A stretch of DNA of 52,569 nt, from assembly GCA_902529515.1 (NCBI GenBank), contig CABZWX010000008.1, forward strand, positions 1 through 52,569, given 5' to 3'. The stretch comes from an uncultured SAR116 cluster alpha proteobacterium (GTDB lineage: Bacteria; Pseudomonadota; Alphaproteobacteria; Puniceispirillales; Marisalimonadaceae). Positions 26,642-47,334 of this stretch are shown here, one piece after another (the stretch's first letter is position 1; every line of letters starts with the position of its first letter). The notes beneath the pieces were generated by a model. It worked only from the letters and a program-made list of their open reading frames with translations, did no database searches and had not been told where the DNA came from. Position numbers and translations under genes: made by a program.

Positions 26642-27809
26642 ATAAATGTAATCAAAATACATTAAGTCTATATGTTCACTGGCCTTATTGTGAGTCAAAA
26701 TGTCCCTATTGTGATTTTAACTCTCATGTGAACGAAAAAATTGAAGTAAATGATTGGATTAAATCATATAAAAATCAATTATTAGCTATGAAAGAAGAAT
26801 TAATTGAAAACAATATAAATTTTAGACATCTTGATACACTTTTTTTTGGTGGCGGTACTCCTTCATTAATGCCATTAAAAATAGTTGAGAATATTATAGA
26901 TATATCCAAAAAATATTTGGTTTTAAAAAAGATATTGAAATAACACTTGAGGCAAATCCAAGTTCGTACGAAAGCAAAAAATTTAATAAATTTAACCAAA
27001 TAGGAATCAATAGAATATCGATTGGGGCACAGTCACTTAATAATAAATATTTAAGTTTTTTAGGAAGATTACACAATATTAAAGATATTAAAATTGCATT
27101 AAATGATGCATCCGGAATATTTGAAAATATTTCTGTTGATTTGATGTATGCTTTTTATGGTCAAAAAATACATGATTGGACAAATGAGTTAGAAAGTTTT
27201 CTAAATACTTATAATTTACAACATCTTTCTTTGTATCAATTAACAATTGAAGAAGGGACAAAATTTTTCAAAGATCACAAAAATGGTAAAATTAAACTCA
27301 TAGATAATGATGTAGCTGCAAAGTTTTATTATATCTCTAACAAAATACTCAGTAATTATAAATTTATAAAATATGAAGTTTCAAACTACGCAAAAAAAGG
27401 TTTCAAATGCAAACATAATCTAAATTACTGGAATTCTGAAAATTGGATTGGCGTTGGACCAGGTGCTTATGGAAGATTGTGGTTATTAGATGAAAATAAA
27501 AGTCGAATTGAATATCAAAATTATAAAAATCCCAAGACTTGGTTATTTAAAAATTTAAAGCGACCAGAATTTGAAAAAATCACTAAATTAAACTCTAGAG
27601 TTTCTGACATAGACACAATTACGATGGGGTTAAGGTTATATAATGGCATTAAAATTTCTAAGATAAATGATTTATCTATAATTAATTTTAGGTCTCTTAA
27701 AGAATTACAAAATAAAAAAATAATATCGTTTAAAGACAACACCTTAAAAGTAAACAAGAAACATATGATTAAACTAAATAGTATTTTAGATTATCTAATT
27801 AATCCTTAG
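26638..27809 (+). pseudogene. hemW: HemW-like radical SAM heme chaperone, reading frame interrupted (frameshift at A6 run)
   Basis: Two frames together make one HemW. The 5' part (26638 to a TAA ending 26943, 101 residues) has the radical SAM motif PYCESKCPYCDF and FFGGGTPSLM. The 3' part is open from the frame of GAT at 26931 to the stop at 27809: DIEITLEANPSS, then RISIGAQSLNN, and the HemW C-terminal domain (YEVSNYAKKGFKCKHNLNYW). The break is at bases 26921-26931, TTTTAAAAAAG. Adding one A, or a -1 slip on A-AAA-AAG, joins the frames and gives about 390 residues, the normal length. Start is TTG at 26638 overlapping rdgB; no better start is visible. Either a sequencing indel, a real mutation, or recoding. 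HemW delivers heme to respiratory enzymes. Confidence 0.85.
26925..26931 (+). other. Slippery heptamer A-AAA-AAG at the hemW frame junction
   Basis: In the upstream hemW frame the codons read TTA AAA AAG, making the heptamer A AAA AAG in the zero frame, the same type used for -1 frameshifting in E. coli dnaX. After a -1 slip the next codon is GAT, entering exactly the frame that encodes the rest of HemW. It is equally explained by a seven-A run recorded as six. No obvious strong downstream hairpin was seen. Confidence 0.5.
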
Positions 27810-29256
27810 ACTTACTGCATTTTTCAATTTTGGTTAATTTTCCTAAATCCTCTATTTGCATTACTTGAATAGGTTTTTTTACGTAACTTTTTCTGTCAAT
27901 AATTAGTCCAGTAACTGGACCTTTAATATTATTAAAATATAAGAGATCTTTTTGTAAATTATTGATATAATTAATTCCTATTATACCTGCATCAAAACCT
28001 GCATTGGAAAAATAATCATTAGTACCTCCCCACACAGCCTTCCAAAGAAATTTAAATGGATCATTATTCTTACTCAATATTAGAGGAAACCATGATTTTT
28101 CTAATGATGGTTCATTTTTAATTTCTTTAATATTAAATGTTTCAGTACCCAAAATTTTCACAAACTTTGAATCTACATTAAAGAAAGCTAATAATGGTGC
28201 TATTTCTAATATGAATTCTTTTCTTCCTCCTATAAGAATAGTTTCAAATTTTGAATGTGTTTCTTCTGTTTCAGAATACTCTAAAAATCTTCTTAAAGTT
28301 GAGTAAAGATTTGTTTTATTATTTAAATCTTCATTTGAAAGAAAAAGTGAGTTATGAGAATTTTTCTTACTTATTGAAATTAAATCTATTGCTTCTCTAG
28401 AAATGATTTTCCCATACAAGTTATCAGGAACTATTATGCCAAATTTACTATATCTATGCTTTATAGCACATGAAATTACACTTTGGATCTGTTCTTCTGG
28501 AGAGAATCCTAAGGACCATACATTGTTTTCAACCATTGCGATGTCATTTGAAAACGTTAAAATTGGAATATTATCCTTCTTTGCAAATTCCTTAATTTTT
28601 ATTAATACTTCCCTTGTAAATGGACCAATTATAAATTTCGGTCTTAGTTCATTAAATAAACTTGTAATGAGTCCATAATCAATAATTTTTCCAGTATCGA
28701 AGTAAATGAATTTTATTTCATTGTTACCAAAGTTTAATATACTTAAATCCAGTGATTTTCTTATTTTATTTCCAAAATTTGAATATTTTCCAGTTAATGG
28801 TAGAAAAACAATAATATTTTGATAATTTATTGTTTTACTTTTTTCAAAATTATACCTCTCTAAGGTAGAAATTTTATCATTGTTTTTTATATTAATTTCA
28901 TCATTACTTGAACTTAAATTTTTTTTAAACATTTTTTGAACAGCTGATAATGCCAACCTCGTTTTTTCTTCTTTAATATTATTAGTAATATTTCTTCCTT
29001 GAAGTAATCTCTCATTTCTAAATTCAAAAATAATATTATTATTTTCTTCTTTTAGTTTGGTGTTATTTTTTTCTGTTATGCCAGTTCGTAATATTTCTTT
29101 TTTTAAATCGTTTTTATTAAAAAATGTTTTATTTGTTTTTTCTTCTTTATTATTATTTTCAATTACTAATTTACTGTTTTTATCATTACATCCATTTATC
29201 ATTAATAATATACAAAAAATTATAATAAGATTATGTTTAGTATTATTAAAAAACAT
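27799..29256 (-). CDS. LpoA/LppC-like penicillin-binding protein activator lipoprotein
   Basis: 485 residues. Lipoprotein signal with lipobox MINGC and Cys23. An Asn/Lys-rich linker (25-145) precedes a type I periplasmic-binding fold of the Peripla_BP_6/LpoA class: IIVFLPLTGKYSNFGNKIRKSLDLSIL (about 150-176), FIGPFTREVLIKIKEFAK, and WKAVWGGTNDYFSNAGFDAGIIGI near the C-terminus. Enterobacterial LpoA is an outer-membrane lipoprotein that activates PBP1a; alphaproteobacterial homologues have only the C-terminal half, as here. Its divergent neighbour rsmI reproduces the common yraM-yraL arrangement. Its 3' end overlaps the hemW 3' end by 11 bases. The activator role is inferred from homology; a ligand-binding role remains possible. 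Confidence 0.85.
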   Translation of the reverse strand: MFFNNTKHNLIIIFCILLMINGCNDKNSKLVIENNNKEEKTNKTFFNKNDLKKEILRTGITEKNNTKLKEENNNIIFEFRNERLLQGRNITNNIKEEKTRLALSAVQKMFKKNLSSSNDEINIKNNDKISTLERYNFEKSKTINYQNIIVFLPLTGKYSNFGNKIRKSLDLSILNFGNNEIKFIYFDTGKIIDYGLITSLFNELRPKFIIGPFTREVLIKIKEFAKKDNIPILTFSNDIAMVENNVWSLGFSPEEQIQSVISCAIKHRYSKFGIIVPDNLYGKIISREAIDLISISKKNSHNSLFLSNEDLNNKTNLYSTLRRFLEYSETEETHSKFETILIGGRKEFILEIAPLLAFFNVDSKFVKILGTETFNIKEIKNEPSLEKSWFPLILSKNNDPFKFLWKAVWGGTNDYFSNAGFDAGIIGINYINNLQKDLLYFNNIKGPVTGLIIDRKSYVKKPIQVMQIEDLGKLTKIEKCSKSKD

Positions 29257-37029: not shown

Positions 37030-37485
37030 ATGAAAAGTTATTTAGAGAATTATATGAATAATGTAAATATAAATAAAGTAGATAGTATTAAATTATTAAA
37101 AAATTTTATTAAAGACTTATCTTTTGAGAACCCTCAAAAGATTGATGAAATTAATGTTAAACATATTAACAACAGTGATCTTAACATTAGCATGAACGCA
37201 TTTTATAAACCTTACAACAATAATAATTTTTTCAGCTTACTACTTCGTTATAATTTTGACTGTTCTTCAAAAGAAAACAATAAAAATTTATTTAACCTTG
37301 AGTTGGATTATTATGGTTTCTTTGAAATTTTAAAACAAAAAAATTATGATCAAGAAGAATTAACTAAAAATGGTATAAAAATTTTATTTCCATTTGTAAA
37401 AGAAATAGTTGAAGATATTACAAGAAAAGGTGGGAGCATGCCTATTTCATTAAATGAAGTAGACTATCGTTTAATAAAAAACTAA
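37030..37485 (+). CDS. secB: Protein-export chaperone SecB (divergent)
   Basis: 151 residues. Recognisable SecB blocks: KNFIKDLSFENPQ near the N-terminus, FNLELDYYGFFEILK in the middle, and the C-terminal LFPFVKEIVEDITRKGGSMPISLNEVDY, which is the best-conserved SecB segment. The remainder is strongly diverged and Asn/Lys rich. SecB keeps precursors unfolded for SecA-dependent export. Context supports it: divergent to the Tim44-domain gene, convergent with dnaQ with a 4-base stop overlap, as in many alphaproteobacteria. The ATG at 37030 has no clear ribosome binding site; a later start is possible. Confidence 0.85.
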   Translation: MKSYLENYMNNVNINKVDSIKLLKNFIKDLSFENPQKIDEINVKHINNSDLNISMNAFYKPYNNNNFFSLLLRYNFDCSSKENNKNLFNLELDYYGFFEILKQKNYDQEELTKNGIKILFPFVKEIVEDITRKGGSMPISLNEVDYRLIKN

Positions 37486-38192
37486 CTATTTATTTTTTTC
37501 CATATACTATCTTCTATTGTTAGAATTTTACTTAAATGTAACTCATAATCTTCTTTATTTACTTCTAAATTTTTTTTCCTTTTTAAATTTATATTTTTAT
37601 TATAACCATCTAGGCTAAATAGTTGATCTTCTGCAGTGTTAACATTTTCAGTTATTATTTCAAAGTCTAGCCTTGATTGTCTTCCTCCTATTAATTCTAA
37701 ATACACAGAAGCTAGAAGTTTAGCGTCTTTTATAGCTCCGTGAATTTCCCTCCCGTTTAAGTCAATATTGTACTTCCTACAAAGTGAATCTAAACTGACT
37801 GATTGACTTAGAAATTTTTTCTTGGCTAGAATTAATGTGTCTATTATCTTATCATCGCTTAATTTTTTCATATTACATCTAGTTAATTCTGCGTTTATAA
37901 AACCAACATCAAATGCTGCATTGTGAATAATTATTTTGCTGTCCGATATATAATCAATAAATTCATTTGCTATATCTGAGAATTTTGGTTTGTCCCTTAA
38001 GAATTCTCGACTTAAACCATGAACTTCTTTCGCTCCTTTGTCTGAATCTCTTTCAGGGTTCAAGTAATAATGAAAAAAATCTCCAGTTGGTAAATGATTT
38101 TCCAGTTCAATTATTCCTATTTCAACTATTCTGTGACCAGTTTCGTAATCTAAACCAGTGGTTTCAGTGTCTAGCACTAACTCTCTAGTCAC
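37482..38192 (-). CDS. dnaQ: DNA polymerase III epsilon subunit (3'-5' exonuclease)
   Basis: 236-residue DEDDh proofreading exonuclease. Exo I: LVLDTETTGLDYETGHRIVEIG with Asp8 and Glu10; Exo II: IIHNAAFDVGFIN; Exo III: REIHGAIKDAKLLASVY (HxAxxD). The C-terminal tail, which in E. coli binds the polymerase alpha subunit, is Lys-rich. The start overlaps the coaE stop by 8 bases: coaE-dnaQ is a conserved alphaproteobacterial pair next to the origin. Full length. Confidence 0.96.
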   Translation of the reverse strand: MTRELVLDTETTGLDYETGHRIVEIGIIELENHLPTGDFFHYYLNPERDSDKGAKEVHGLSREFLRDKPKFSDIANEFIDYISDSKIIIHNAAFDVGFINAELTRCNMKKLSDDKIIDTLILAKKKFLSQSVSLDSLCRKYNIDLNGREIHGAIKDAKLLASVYLELIGGRQSRLDFEIITENVNTAEDQLFSLDGYNKNINLKRKKNLEVNKEDYELHLSKILTIEDSIWKKINS

Positions 38193-38796
38193 TGTATTTT
38201 ACTCTAAGTTTAATTTTTAATAAATAAAACAAAACTAAAACAAATGTTATTGTTTTACCAAATGATGTATAAATTATAAAAGGTTTTTCTTTTATTTTTC
38301 TTGCAAAACTCCATTGTGATTTTTTGATAAGTTCAAATTTTTTTTCAGTCATATTTGCTCTCTTTAAGACCCTTTTTTTTTGAATCTTCTTTGACGTTTT
38401 CATTAGAAAAACATAATCACATTTTTTATCTATTCCTGTCTCATATAGTAAAGGAATATCTAATCCCACTATCCCATCATTGCTAGGATTCTGTAAAAAT
38501 GTTTTTCTTTCTTTTTCAACAAGTGGGTGAATTATGTTTTCCAGTTTTTTTCTCTCTTCCTTATTTTTAAATATTTTGTTGCTTAAAGCCACTTTATCAA
38601 TTTTTCTTTTCATTTGATCAGATGATGTCGTATCTGGCCAAATTTTTAATATCTTTTCTATAACAAGTTGATTTTTATCTAATATTTCTTTTACTTCTTT
38701 ATCAGAATCGAAAATTGGTATTTTTAAAATTTTAAACATTTTTGATACAGTTGTTTTACCTGTACCTATTGATCCTGTTATACCGATTATTATCAT
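38185..38796 (-). CDS. coaE: Dephospho-CoA kinase
   Basis: 203-residue P-loop kinase performing the last coenzyme A step. P-loop GITGSIGTGKTT at 5-16; DSDKEVKEIL is the adenylate-kinase-like lid region; IVGLDIPLLYETG and the FLMKTSKKIQKKRVLKRANMT block are typical. The C-terminal 25 residues are unusually hydrophobic (FVLVLFYLLKIKLRV) where relatives are Arg-rich; probably a consequence of AT bias, though a frame error cannot be excluded. First gene leftward of the predicted origin; overlaps dnaQ by 8 bases. Confidence 0.93.
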   Translation of the reverse strand: MIIIGITGSIGTGKTTVSKMFKILKIPIFDSDKEVKEILDKNQLVIEKILKIWPDTTSSDQMKRKIDKVALSNKIFKNKEERKKLENIIHPLVEKERKTFLQNPSNDGIVGLDIPLLYETGIDKKCDYVFLMKTSKKIQKKRVLKRANMTEKKFELIKKSQWSFARKIKEKPFIIYTSFGKTITFVLVLFYLLKIKLRVKYSD

Positions 38797-39070
38797 TATA
38801 ATTTTCTTTTAGTGGATAAATTGTTGATAATCATACTTTATCTGTCAAAATTCAATATTTATCTTTTAATATATATATTTATCCATAACTTAATTACATG
38901 TTAGTAATTTTTAATTTCAAAAATTAAGGTTTGTGAATAACTTTAATTACTTATATAATTCAATAACATTTTTTTTAATAAAATGTGGATAAATTTAATT
39001 TTTTTTTTTATTCACAACTTTATGAAAAACTACAACTTCATTATTAAACTTTATATAAAGTATTTTCATT
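38797..39070. other. oriC: Predicted chromosomal replication origin (oriC)
   Basis: 274-base intergenic region between divergent coaE and hemE, the largest gap in the window. It contains six DnaA-box matches to TTATCCACA: 38811-38819 (minus, 8/9), 38822-38830 (minus, 8/9), 38879-38887 (plus, 8/9), 38932-38940 (minus, 8/9, TTATTCACA), 38984-38992 (minus, 9/9) and 39008-39016 (plus, 8/9, TTATTCACA). AT-only tracts at about 38865-38881 and 38966-39010 could be the unwinding element. Caulobacter and relatives have their origin beside hemE, and parS sites and parAB lie within 8 kb. Most genes to the left run leftward and the first eight to the right run rightward, away from the gap. Confidence 0.87.
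38984..38992 (-). promoter_or_regulatory. Perfect DnaA box
   Basis: On the minus strand it reads TTATCCACA, identical to the strongest E. coli DnaA box. It is 79 bases before the hemE start and is the only 9/9 match in the coaE-hemE gap; five one-mismatch boxes surround it. Confidence 0.8.
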
Positions 39071-40108
39071 GTGTCAGATAACTTAATAAATAATGTGTTT
39101 GAAAATAAAAAATCTTCTATTCCAATTTGGTTTTTAAGACAAGCTGGAAGGCATATACCTGAATATTATAAAATTAAAGAAAATGAGAAAAATTTTATTA
39201 AATTTTGTTTAAACCAAGACCTAATAATTAAAAGTACAACTTTACCATTAAAATATTATGATCTTGATGCAGCTATTATATTTTCCGATATCTTAATGAT
39301 ACCCTGGGCAATGGATAGAAATGTCAAGTTCACTAAAAATTTTGGTCCCTCTTTGAAACCTATGATACCAAATGAAACTAAAATTCTTCAAAATATATCT
39401 TTATGTTCTAAGCTTGAACCTCTTAAAAATTCAATAAGTATTCTTAGAGATAATTTACCAAAATCTGTTAGTTTAATTGGTTTTGCTGGGGCTCCATGGA
39501 CCCTTGCATGTTATATGATTGAAGGAACAGGAAGTAAAGACTTCATCAACACTAGGAAAGCTCTTTGGAGTTCATATAAATGGTTTATGGAGTTAATTGA
39601 AGTCCTAATAATTCATATTGCTGATAAATTGGAAATGCAAGCTAAAGCTGGAGCTGATGTTTTGATGATTTTCGACTCTTGGTCTCATATGATACCTAAT
39701 AATTTTTTTAATGATTGTGCCATAAGACCAACGGCTAAAATAGTAGATATTTTAAGAACTAGAAAAATTTATGCACCTGTTATTGGGTTCCCATTTAAAG
39801 CAGGAGGATCTATTATAAAATATTCCTTTGAAAGCAAAGTTGATTGTATTGCGTTGGATTGGACAGTTAATCTAAATTGGGCAATAAAGAGTCTTAATAA
39901 AGATGTTGCTTTACAAGGTAATCTTGATCCAGCTTCTCTTATTCCATCTCATAGCGAACATTTAAAAGAGAATGTATTAACTATTTTAGATACAATGAAA
40001 GACAGAAGATTTATATTTAATGTTGGTCACGGTTTAACTCCAGATTGTAAAATTGATAACGTTAAAGAAGTTATCAGTATCGTGAGAAATTATAAAAGGA
40101 AATTTTAA
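39071..40108 (+). CDS. hemE: Uroporphyrinogen decarboxylase
   Basis: 345-residue enzyme converting uroporphyrinogen III to coproporphyrinogen III in heme synthesis. N-terminal motif PIWFLRQAGRHIPEYYKI with the substrate-binding Arg pair, then the Asp of IIFSDILMIP, GFAGAPWTLACYMIEG, and C-terminal FNVGHGLTPDCKIDNVKE. Start is GTG at 39071; no in-frame ATG occurs before the conserved N-terminus. Its promoter must lie in or beside the predicted origin, as in Caulobacter. hemJ follows 3 bases later. Confidence 0.97.
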   Translation: MSDNLINNVFENKKSSIPIWFLRQAGRHIPEYYKIKENEKNFIKFCLNQDLIIKSTTLPLKYYDLDAAIIFSDILMIPWAMDRNVKFTKNFGPSLKPMIPNETKILQNISLCSKLEPLKNSISILRDNLPKSVSLIGFAGAPWTLACYMIEGTGSKDFINTRKALWSSYKWFMELIEVLIIHIADKLEMQAKAGADVLMIFDSWSHMIPNNFFNDCAIRPTAKIVDILRTRKIYAPVIGFPFKAGGSIIKYSFESKVDCIALDWTVNLNWAIKSLNKDVALQGNLDPASLIPSHSEHLKENVLTILDTMKDRRFIFNVGHGLTPDCKIDNVKEVISIVRNYKRKF

Positions 40109-41836: not shown

Positions 41837-41852
41837 TGTTTCATGTGAAACA
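41837..41852. promoter_or_regulatory. parS: parS-like centromere site 1
   Basis: TGTTTCATGTGAAACA differs from the 16-base ParB target TGTTTCACGTGAAACA at a single position. It lies in the rho-mnmE gap, 2.8 kb from the predicted origin and 4.6 kb from parB. Position and near identity make it a probable ParB site. Confidence 0.82.
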
Positions 41853-45062: not shown

Positions 45063-45702
45063 TACATATGAAAAGTTTTGTTCGCATATATTTGTTTCAC
45101 GTGAAACATATGAAAAATTATGTTTGTTTCAAAAAATTCTTATTAAATGGCAAAAGTCAATCAATTTAATAAGTAAAAAAACTATTGAAAATACTTGGGA
45201 TAGACATTTCTTAGACTCAGCACAATTGTACAAGTATGTTAAAGATATAGAAGGAAACATAATAGATTTTGGTTCTGGGGCTGGATTTCCGGGTATGGTG
45301 CTTGCAATAATGAGTAAAAAAAAAATCCACTTAGTTGAATCTGATCATAAGAAATGTGTTTTTTTAAAAGAAATTGCAATGTTAACAGAAACAGATATAA
45401 CTATTCATAATTGTAGAATTGAAGATTTGAACTTTATAAATGTTGACTTGGTTACTTGCAGAGCATTAGCATCATTGAAAAACCTAATTCAATATGTAGA
45501 GCTCTTCATAAATAAATCATCTGGAGAAAAACAAAAATTTCCTAAGATGCTGTTTTTAAAGGGGAAATCTTATTATTCGGAGATTGTTGAGTTAAGTAAA
45601 ATAAAAAAAATTAGTTTCGACGAATATCCTTCAATAACAGACAAAGATGGAAGAATTTTATATATAAATAAAGTTGATAATTTGAATATTGAAAATGATT
45701 GA
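45046..45702 (+). CDS. rsmG: 16S rRNA (guanine-527-N7)-methyltransferase RsmG (GidB)
   Basis: 218-residue SAM methyltransferase modifying G527 near the decoding site; its loss gives low-level streptomycin resistance in other bacteria. SAM-binding motif [17 protein letters not shown] at about 70-88; HFLDSAQLY upstream. The N-terminal [10 protein letters not shown] is encoded by DNA that is also a perfect parS site, a dual use known from other alphaproteobacterial gidB genes. TTG start at 45046 overlaps the mnmG end by 17 bases; parA starts within its last codons. Confidence 0.94.
45093..45108. promoter_or_regulatory. parS: Perfect parS centromere site 2, inside rsmG
   Basis: TGTTTCACGTGAAACA, an exact 16-base palindrome identical to the consensus ParB site. 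It lies in the fifteenth to twentieth codons of rsmG and is translated as VSRET, so sequence is shared by protein and centromere. It is 0.6 kb before parA. Confidence 0.95.
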
Positions 45703-46480
45703 TAAAGTTACACAGATCATTGCTATAGCAAATCAGAAGGGTGGCGTAGGAAAAACTACCACTGTAGTAAATTTGGCAACAGCTATGGCAGCCTGTGATA
45801 AAAAAACACTTATAATTGACGCAGATCCACAAGGAAATGCTAGTACTGGCTTTGGCATAAAATACGATCAAAGAGATAAAGATTTATATTCTATAATTTG
45901 TGGTAAGGATAATATAAATGTTTCAATTAAAAAAACTATGATACCAAAATTAGATATTATTCCCACCTCACCAGATCTTTCTGTCCTTGAACAAGAATTA
46001 GTTGATGTAAAAAATAGAGAATTTAAAATTCGTGATTTAATTAGAGAAATTGGTGAGTTTTACGATTACATATTCATTGATTGTCCACCTTCTCTAGGAT
46101 TGCTTACATTGAATGCTTTATGTGCGGCTAAAAGTTTAATTGTACCTCTTCAAACAGAATTTTATGCATTGGAGGGTTTAACTCAACTCATGAAAACATT
46201 GGAGTTAATTAAAAAAAATTTTAATAATAATATTACTCTCCAAGGTATACTCCTAACAATGTATGACAAAAGAAATAAAATATGTGAAATGGTATCAAAT
46301 GACGTTAAAAATCATTTTAATGATAAAGTTTTTAAAACTATAATTCCAAGAAACGTTAGAATTTCTGAAGCACCTAGTTATGGTCAGCCAGTATTGATGT
46401 ATGATATTTCATGTCCGGGATCTCAAGCATATGCTTCATTGGCAGGTGAAATAATTAATCAAGAGAGAGATTTTAAATGA
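45695..46480 (+). CDS. parA: Chromosome partitioning ATPase ParA (Soj)
   Basis: 261-residue deviant Walker ATPase. Walker A KGGVGKTT with both lysines begins at residue 15; DADPQGNASTGFG, then the FIDCPPSLGLLTLNAL block. ParA moves ParB-parS complexes after replication initiation. An in-frame TTG at 45689 would add two residues; I prefer ATG 45695, which overlaps the rsmG stop by 8 bases. Its stop overlaps the parB start by 4 bases. rsmG-parA-parB is the standard chromosomal par locus. Confidence 0.97.
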   Translation: MIDKVTQIIAIANQKGGVGKTTTVVNLATAMAACDKKTLIIDADPQGNASTGFGIKYDQRDKDLYSIICGKDNINVSIKKTMIPKLDIIPTSPDLSVLEQELVDVKNREFKIRDLIREIGEFYDYIFIDCPPSLGLLTLNALCAAKSLIVPLQTEFYALEGLTQLMKTLELIKKNFNNNITLQGILLTMYDKRNKICEMVSNDVKNHFNDKVFKTIIPRNVRISEAPSYGQPVLMYDISCPGSQAYASLAGEIINQERDFK

Positions 46481-47334
46481 AACAAAAGAAAAATTCCAGA
46501 CCTAATGGCCTTGGAAGTGGTCTTTCAAGTCTTTTAGGTGCTGAAGCAGAAAAAAATAATGATAATTATAAAATGGTACCAATAGAGTTTATCAAACCTG
46601 GACCATGGCAGCCAAGAAAAATTTTTGATAAAGATGAATTAGATTCCTTGTCCAATTCAATAAAAAAACAGGGCATAATTCAACCAGTAATCTTAAAATC
46701 TAACGATAAAGTTAAAAATGAATATTTTATAATTGCTGGTGAAAGAAGGTGGAGAGCATGTCAATTAGCAAAAATACATGAAATTCCAGCCATTATTAGA
46801 GATGATATAAATGTTGAAAAAATTGCTGAATTATCTTTGGTTGAAAATATTCAAAGATCTGAATTAAATCCTATTGAAGAAGCAGAAGGGTATCAGTCTC
46901 TTTTAAGCAATTATAATTATACTCAAGAAGATATTTCAAAAGCAGTTGGAAAATCTCGGTCTTATATTGGTAATATTATTAGATTATTATCATTGTCGGT
47001 TAAGGCTAAAGAATTATTATTAGAGAAAAAACTTACTATTGGTCAAGTCCGACCACTTATAGGACATAAAGATGCTGACATTTTTTTAGATATAATATTA
47101 AAGAAAAGACTTAATTCTAGAGATATTGAAAAACTCATAAAACAAGGAAATATAAAGTCCAATAAAAATAACGTCAAAAATATAGATATTATTAATTTAG
47201 AAAAAGAATTAACAGAAATAACAGGACTAGGCGTAAATATTGATTTTAATTATTTAAAAAACACTGGTACTATAAAACTAGAATGTAAAAATCTAGAACA
47301 ATTTAACTTTATAATTGAAAAATTTAAGAATTAA
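46477..47334 (+). CDS. parB: Chromosome partitioning protein ParB (Spo0J)
   Basis: 285-residue parS-binding CTPase clamp. N-terminal PNGLGSGLSSLLG ParA-interacting segment; IKPGPWQPRKIF; the CTP-binding box GERRWRA at 88-94; a helix-turn-helix around 135-165 (YTQEDISKAVGKSRSYIGNIIRLL); and a C-terminal dimerisation domain. Its targets are the two parS sites in this window. It overlaps parA by 4 bases and converges on holA with an 11-base overlap. Confidence 0.97.
   Translation: MKQKKNSRPNGLGSGLSSLLGAEAEKNNDNYKMVPIEFIKPGPWQPRKIFDKDELDSLSNSIKKQGIIQPVILKSNDKVKNEYFIIAGERRWRACQLAKIHEIPAIIRDDINVEKIAELSLVENIQRSELNPIEEAEGYQSLLSNYNYTQEDISKAVGKSRSYIGNIIRLLSLSVKAKELLLEKKLTIGQVRPLIGHKDADIFLDIILKKRLNSRDIEKLIKQGNIKSNKNNVKNIDIINLEKELTEITGLGVNIDFNYLKNTGTIKLECKNLEQFNFIIEKFKN

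Follow-up and report, generated by a model that had tools for sequence, protein, structure and literature searches.

A probable hemE-type replication origin in a SAR116 cluster genome carries a triplet run resembling a DnaA-trio

The gap between coaE and hemE in an uncultured SAR116 cluster alphaproteobacterium, proposed as the chromosomal replication origin in an initial annotation made from the sequence alone, raises two questions: whether the chromosome starts to replicate here and, if so, which part of the gap DnaA would use to open it. The window that we analyzed is one whole contig of 52,569 nucleotides, from an assembly of 79 contigs that is 62% complete.

The coaE–hemE gap and its DnaA box cluster

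The gap (positions 38797–39070) is 274 bp long with a GC content of 15%, and is kept in 26 congener loci. It is the largest between the main open reading frames of the window, of which the initial annotation called it the only sizeable gap; the next five (197, 140, 134, 120, and 106 bp) contain no DnaA box. The flanking genes diverge, with coaE (dephospho-CoA kinase, 38185–38796, minus strand; TIGR00152) on the left and hemE (uroporphyrinogen decarboxylase, 39071–40108, plus strand; TIGR01464) on the right, both over their family cut-offs. Beyond coaE lies dnaQ, encoding the DNA polymerase III epsilon subunit (37482–38192, minus strand). No RNA family was found near the gap and no tRNA in the window. 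Elsewhere in the window, a 485-amino acid open reading frame (27799–29256, minus strand) has no NCBIfam match at E ≤ 1e-20.

Counting as a DnaA box any site with at most one mismatch to TTATCCACA, we find six boxes within 206 bases (38811–39016), one perfect and five with a single mismatch, exactly as annotated. The left part of the cluster comprises TTATCCACT (38811–38819) and TTATCAACA (38822–38830), both on the minus strand, and TTATCCATA on the plus strand (38879–38887). To their right lie TTATTCACA on the minus strand (38932–38940), the perfect box TTATCCACA, also on the minus strand (38984–38992), and the last rightward box, TTATTCACA on the plus strand (39008–39016), which we propose as the loader of DnaA onto the triplets described below. 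Box offsets were scored in the 17 congener loci in plus orientation, the other nine being compared by alignment only. A box recurs at the offset of the perfect one (∼187) in 14 of these 17 loci, at that of the last rightward box (∼212) in 13, at that of the 38932 box (∼135) in 8, and at that of the 38822 box (∼26) in 7. Two of the 17 gaps (L032 and L035) have no box at this threshold.

This density is far beyond chance. Among 20,000 Markov sequences generated from the dinucleotides of the gap, 3 contained three boxes and none contained more, and the rest of the window reaches a maximum of one box per 275-base stretch starting at a box. A count over the whole assembly, which the initial annotation had asked for, gives 433 boxes in 1,280,379 bases; a backwards control pattern occurs 487 times, so DnaA boxes are not enriched genome-wide. 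At this frequency 0.07 boxes are expected per 206 bases, and the Poisson probability of at least six is ∼1.5e-10, or ∼1e-6 when all windows of that size are allowed for. Equally dense boxes in other gaps, which would have spoken against an origin, were absent from the ∼18% of the assembly covered by the density scan (the window and one further contig, C1, whose 79 boxes reach at most 2 per 210 bases). In addition, the inward-facing pair TGTGRATAA-N5..35-TTATYCACA (38984–39016) has its sole occurrence in the whole assembly in the coaE–hemE gap. The AT-only tracts are likewise borne out: the gap has three of at least 15 bases (19, 17, and 24 bases), compared with 0.67 expected per 274 bases of the window. 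Another locus on C1 (L001, G000:C1:90104–90123) pairs a perfect box with a one-mismatch box two bases on, and is possibly a DnaA-regulated site outside the origin.

A hemE match was found in 50 of the 61 genomes searched, 28 of them among the 37 genomes of the genus; 2 of these 28 loci end at a contig edge, leaving 26 readable congener loci. In all 26, coaE is the divergent neighbor across the gap, which measures 259–289 bp. Of three flagged in-frame stops inspected in congener hemE genes, two proved to be the terminal codon, and the third falls two codons short of the match end.

Flanking genes and replication landmarks

Origins beside hemE are known from Caulobacter and Rickettsia (excerpts of PMC1914354), in agreement with the annotation. 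Like Caulobacter crescentus Cori and the origins of Rickettsia, Wolbachia, and Anaplasma in those excerpts, the present gap is intergenic, AT-rich, furnished with DnaA boxes, and bounded on one side by hemE. In contrast, its other flank is coaE, where the hemE-linked origins described there have ppsR (COG1806/DUF299) or COG1253, and its 274 bp compare with >400 bp reported for Caulobacter and Rickettsia prowazekii (PMC1914354, in excerpt). The locus thus has the hemE-side gap with a DnaA box cluster expected of a hemE-type origin and lacks ppsR on the other side; since that flank is known to vary, with COG1253 in Wolbachia and its relatives (same excerpts), we did not treat the missing ppsR as excluding.

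The initial annotation held that ppsR, maf, and aroE usually lie between coaE and the origin and that the direct coaE flank is a compressed arrangement. The latter is found in all 26 readable congener loci; in the outgroup genomes of the order that we examined, the former stands for ppsR and a second maf and falls for aroE. Among 20 outgroup loci of the order, 17 show coaE and dnaQ upstream of the gap and three are too short; 13 of the 17 have two open reading frames between coaE and the gap, one the size of maf and one the size of ppsR. All four loci of one family (f3; L040, L051, L056, and L057) have just the ppsR-sized frame there, which we take to be an intermediate state of gene loss. Family searches confirmed ppsR in five of five outgroup genomes. 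In each of these they also located a second maf copy at the gap, scoring above the curated cut-off in one genome and just below it in the other four; aroE is not at the gap in any of the five. Within the genus, ppsR is absent from all nine genomes searched, and maf is present as one copy in eight of the nine, with none found in the incomplete assembly of the window. Hence coaE adjoins the gap because the genus is without ppsR and the origin-side copy of maf, and the coaE flank is best explained as a genus trait produced by loss of these two genes.

The partition genes annotated next door are present. A ParA-like ATPase (45689–46480, plus strand; best E 2.6e-32, a clear match with no family over its cut-off) and a ParB-family partition protein (46477–47334, plus strand; over the TIGR00180 cut-off, which is a domain cut-off) are encoded ∼6.6 kb downstream of the gap. 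Against what we take to be the parS consensus, there is one perfect site (45093–45108) and one with a single mismatch (41837–41852); these sites and the partition genes lie 2.8–8.3 kb from the gap. The dnaA gene lies elsewhere, on another contig in this genome and ∼62 kb from the gap in two congeners (G011 and G009).

The skew switch expected at an origin is seen at the matching hemE gap of two complete genomes of the order; in the window, one contig of a fragmented genome, the skew minimum lies near 38–40 kb. For the complete genomes, we took 20-kb samples and averaged the skew at 4-fold sites across the two gene orientations. In G042, with the hemE gap at ∼1.8087 Mb, all 10 samples between 0.56 and 1.80 Mb are negative; 4 of the 6 between 1.82 and 2.62 Mb are positive (the remaining two at −0.020 and −0.009), as are all 4 between 0 and 0.44 Mb. 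In G048, with the gap at ∼1.4915 Mb, all 8 samples between 0.56 and 1.485 Mb are negative and all 8 between 1.50 and 2.48 Mb are positive; three of four samples at 0–0.44 Mb are positive and one is negative. The sign therefore changes at the hemE gap in both. In 11 genus genomes, raw skew around the gap has a mean of −0.090 toward coaE and +0.031 toward hemE, and all 11 show the expected order. Gene direction accounts for part of this; after correction for gene orientation the means are −0.004 and +0.071, and 9 of the 11 show the expected order. A 727-kb contig of G011 shows weak and noisy skew, which we counted neither as proof nor as refutation.

Other landmarks were tried as marks of an origin and not adopted as evidence. 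Unlike Caulobacter Cori-type origins, the gap of the window has no exact CtrA site (TTAA-N7-TTAA); across the 26 gaps there are 12 such sites in 10 gaps, compared with 6.2 in shuffled sequences. IHF-like sites, searched with what we take to be the consensus, number 17 in 15 of the 26 gaps compared with 2.6 in shuffles, possibly by way of an overlapping DnaA box. GANTC, the methylation site of CcrM, does not occur in the 26 gaps (38797–39070 and 25 congener gaps), where shuffles give 8.4; it is also scarce across the whole window (80, compared with 137 in one shuffle), so no origin-specific claim can be attached to it.

Considered together, the flanks conserved in 26 of 26 loci, the skew flips in G042 and G048, and the two parS sites support the annotated origin, and the coaE–hemE gap is very probably the chromosomal oriC, of the alphaproteobacterial hemE type.

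A triplet run between the last box and hemE

The alignment of the 26 gaps has a period-3 pattern just upstream of hemE. In the window, a 13-nt spacer (39017–39029) follows the last rightward box and leads to the run CTA CAA CTT CAT on the plus strand (39030–39041; 3′-GAT GTT GAA GTA-5′ on the lower strand), a proposed variant DnaA-trio. The AT-rich tract beyond it (39042–39070), in which 26 of 29 bases are A or T, reaches to hemE and is the proposed opening site.

This arrangement recurs throughout the genus. The spacer after the last rightward box is 10–14 nt in 25 of the 26 loci, the exception being L033 with 26 nt, where the best box has three mismatches; six of the 26 have a last rightward box that departs from the consensus at two or three positions. 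C[A/T][A/T] triplets number four or five in 24 loci, three in L034, and two in L036. Alignment columns 1, 4, 7, and 10 are C in 26, 26, 25, and 17 of the 26 gaps, with almost only A or T between them. Runs of at least four triplets are present on the hemE strand in 24 of the 26 gaps and on the other strand in none, compared with 0.45 in shuffles. A strict pattern of box, 10–14 nt, and triplets occurs 16 times in the 61 genomes, 14 of these at the coaE–hemE gap (backwards control, 0); 14 of the 37 genus genomes carry it, and none of the 24 order outgroups does. A “reversed” control, with at least four triplets in 19 of the 26 genus gaps, was rejected as no true control, a backwards run being the same run in another phase.

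A close known counterpart is the basal unwinding system (BUS) of Bacillus, where DnaA bound at the boxes loads further molecules of the protein onto 3′-GAT-5′ triplets; a published survey gives a spacer peak of 10–13 bp and requires three 3′-NAN-5′ triplets (excerpts of PMC8287927). Both the B. subtilis system and the genus have a rightward box, a 10–14 nt spacer, at least three in-register triplets, and an AT tract after them, and the 13 nt of the window lie within the ≤16 bp that the BUS definition allows between box and triplets. They differ in the central base of the triplet, a conserved A in B. subtilis and A or T here: read as 3′-G[A/T][A/T]-5′, the 106 genus triplets have A in 38 and T in 68. 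They differ also in the last box, which usually stands alone in the genus, the window having an inverted box 15 nt before it. The published rule (three 3′-NAN-5′ triplets within 16 nt of the last rightward box), applied only next to that box, is satisfied in 12 of 26 gaps, the window not among them. The extended trio of Thermotoga maritima, three TAG repeats needed there for single-strand binding (excerpts of PMC10316083), is likewise a tandem triplet; L028, L030, and L032 have pure lower-strand TAG repeats (3′-GAT-5′), whereas in most members of the genus the run is mixed and includes central T. Inspection by eye of the sequence to the left of two leftward boxes (38822 and 38984) showed no TAG repeat.

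We infer that DnaA would use these triplets, and on the lower strand. In the mechanism we propose, DnaA would fill the box array, and the molecule on the last rightward box (39008) would be set next to the triplets at 39030–39041 by the 13-nt spacer; further DnaA molecules would then grip the lower strand, one 3′-GWW-5′ triplet each, and open the adjacent AT tract for helicase loading. Granted an origin, it is reasonably likely that the triplets are the unwinding element, and we hold the origin together with this general mechanism with good confidence. Judged from sequence comparison, the opening element is likely a DnaA-trio variant.

Outside the order, 119 class genomes have a hemE match; how far the element extends was examined in the 88 best-scoring of these and in 80 named loci. 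A first, motif-based location of hemE reached 55 of the 88 class loci and was replaced; two loci with an uncertain match position (L164 and L168) were kept in the class counts with an estimated one. At least three triplets are present in 37 of the 88 class loci (other strand, 7) and at least four in 22 (other strand, 2), whereas the named loci have at least three in 13 of 80 (other strand, 7) and at least four in 4 (other strand, 1). Among class and named loci with a divergent ppsR, the element is present in 31 of 67 and 9 of 48. Of the 20 order-outgroup loci, 8 have at least three strict triplets, or 9 with a different search window (other strand, 3), and further ones have interrupted runs by eye. 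Several class loci (L161, L171, and L194; also L365) combine box-like sites, a GG/CC block, triplets, and an AT tract, and in class loci the run precedes the hemE motif by 93–335 nt, in many cases following directly on box-like sites. The counts in the 88 and 80 loci reject class-wide universality and, given the rarity in named loci (13 and 4 of 80), the element appears to belong to part of the class, most clearly to the genus of the window. In one genome (G122; loci L222 and L273), a long run, CTACATCATCATCATCATCTT, lies upstream of hemE, and the DnaA of this genome has Arg rather than Tyr at the Asn187 position discussed below.

DnaA pocket residues and competing readings

In a structure of Bacillus DnaA, the guanine of the trio is held by Arg202 and Glu228 and the adenine by Asn187; changing the central A to T lowers initiation, and none of the pocket residues is universally conserved (excerpts of PMC10721633). 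The equivalent residues in the genus are Lys, Glu, and Tyr in nine of nine DnaA proteins, so that relative to B. subtilis Tyr replaces Asn187 and Lys replaces Arg202. We compared position 187 in 30 alphaproteobacterial DnaAs (9 of the genus, 5 of the order, 15 of 17 of the class, and L285; six alphaproteobacterial loci were unreadable), which have Tyr in 26, His in 2, Phe in 1, and Arg in 1. Other Pseudomonadota, in 20 readable of 23 loci, some of them close relatives of each other, have Asn in 7, Thr in 7, Gln in 3, Ala in 2, and Ser in 1. Lys202 is common outside the class (13 of 20), so the change at 187 alone marks the alphaproteobacterial group. The variable triplet center and the change at 187 are one correlation in one branch of the tree, which is not proof of co-evolution. 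An open-access literature search found no paper on central-T trios in Alphaproteobacteria, which is weak evidence of absence.

If the gap were not an origin, its box cluster could be a DnaA-regulated divergent promoter or a DnaA-titrating site, with the true origin elsewhere, for example at dnaA. The position of dnaA on another contig and the weak skew of the 727-kb G011 contig would fit, but two complete relatives show a skew switch at the matching gap, the parS sites lie nearby, and the hemE side is a known place for origins in Caulobacter and Rickettsia (PMC1914354, in excerpt), making this very improbable. A narrower alternative accepts the origin and assigns the triplets to the leader or promoter of hemE, for example as an unstructured CAA-rich translation enhancer, leaving DnaA to open another AT-rich part. 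CAA-rich leaders can act as translation enhancers, the whole gap is AT-rich, and the run ends near the start of hemE, its first triplet lying 33–54 nt from the gene in the 26 loci. However, within the genus the element keeps a more constant distance from the box (sd 0.90 when L033 is left out, 2.74 when it is included) than from hemE (sd 5.25), the class runs lie far upstream of hemE yet often directly after box-like sites, and there is no coding reason for a period of three upstream of a start codon. We consider a leader unlikely.

The remaining choice concerns how the triplets would be read. They may be an ordinary 3′-GAT-5′ DnaA-trio with tolerated mismatches, the drift of the central base being AT-rich noise and the residue change in DnaA unrelated. 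This is a possibility to be taken seriously, if a doubtful one: 12 of 26 runs begin with CTA (3′-GAT-5′), more than with any other triplet, in line with what is published for the position nearest the box (PMC8287927, in excerpt), three loci are pure 3′-GAT-5′, and the pocket residues are not universally conserved (PMC10721633, in excerpt). It accounts less well for the upper-strand C, which is held at the first three triplets in 26, 26, and 25 of 26 gaps while the center varies, or for (CAA)n elements, which in no register place an A on the lower strand, and it sits poorly with the lowered initiation of the central A-to-T change in Bacillus (PMC10721633, in excerpt). Alternatively, we tentatively suggest a shifted trio code in a branch of the Alphaproteobacteria, in which DnaA might read the 3′-G through Lys202 and Glu228 and accept a central A or T, tolerated because the adenine-reading Asn187 became Tyr; element and initiator pocket would then have changed together.

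As an origin the locus is ordinary: the call adds one hemE-type oriC, whose coaE flank is explained by gene loss. Of greater consequence is the triplet run. That a DnaA-trio has a central adenine was derived from the genetics and structure of the Bacillus system, and the program published for such searches requires a central A (PMC8287927 and PMC10721633, both in excerpt), so origins built on 3′-GTT-5′ or 3′-GTA-5′ would be missed or read in another register. The relaxed triplet code proposed here from sequence, rare in our second sample, would be a testable variant; if the DnaA of this lineage captures central-T triplets, then base recognition in origin opening can evolve.
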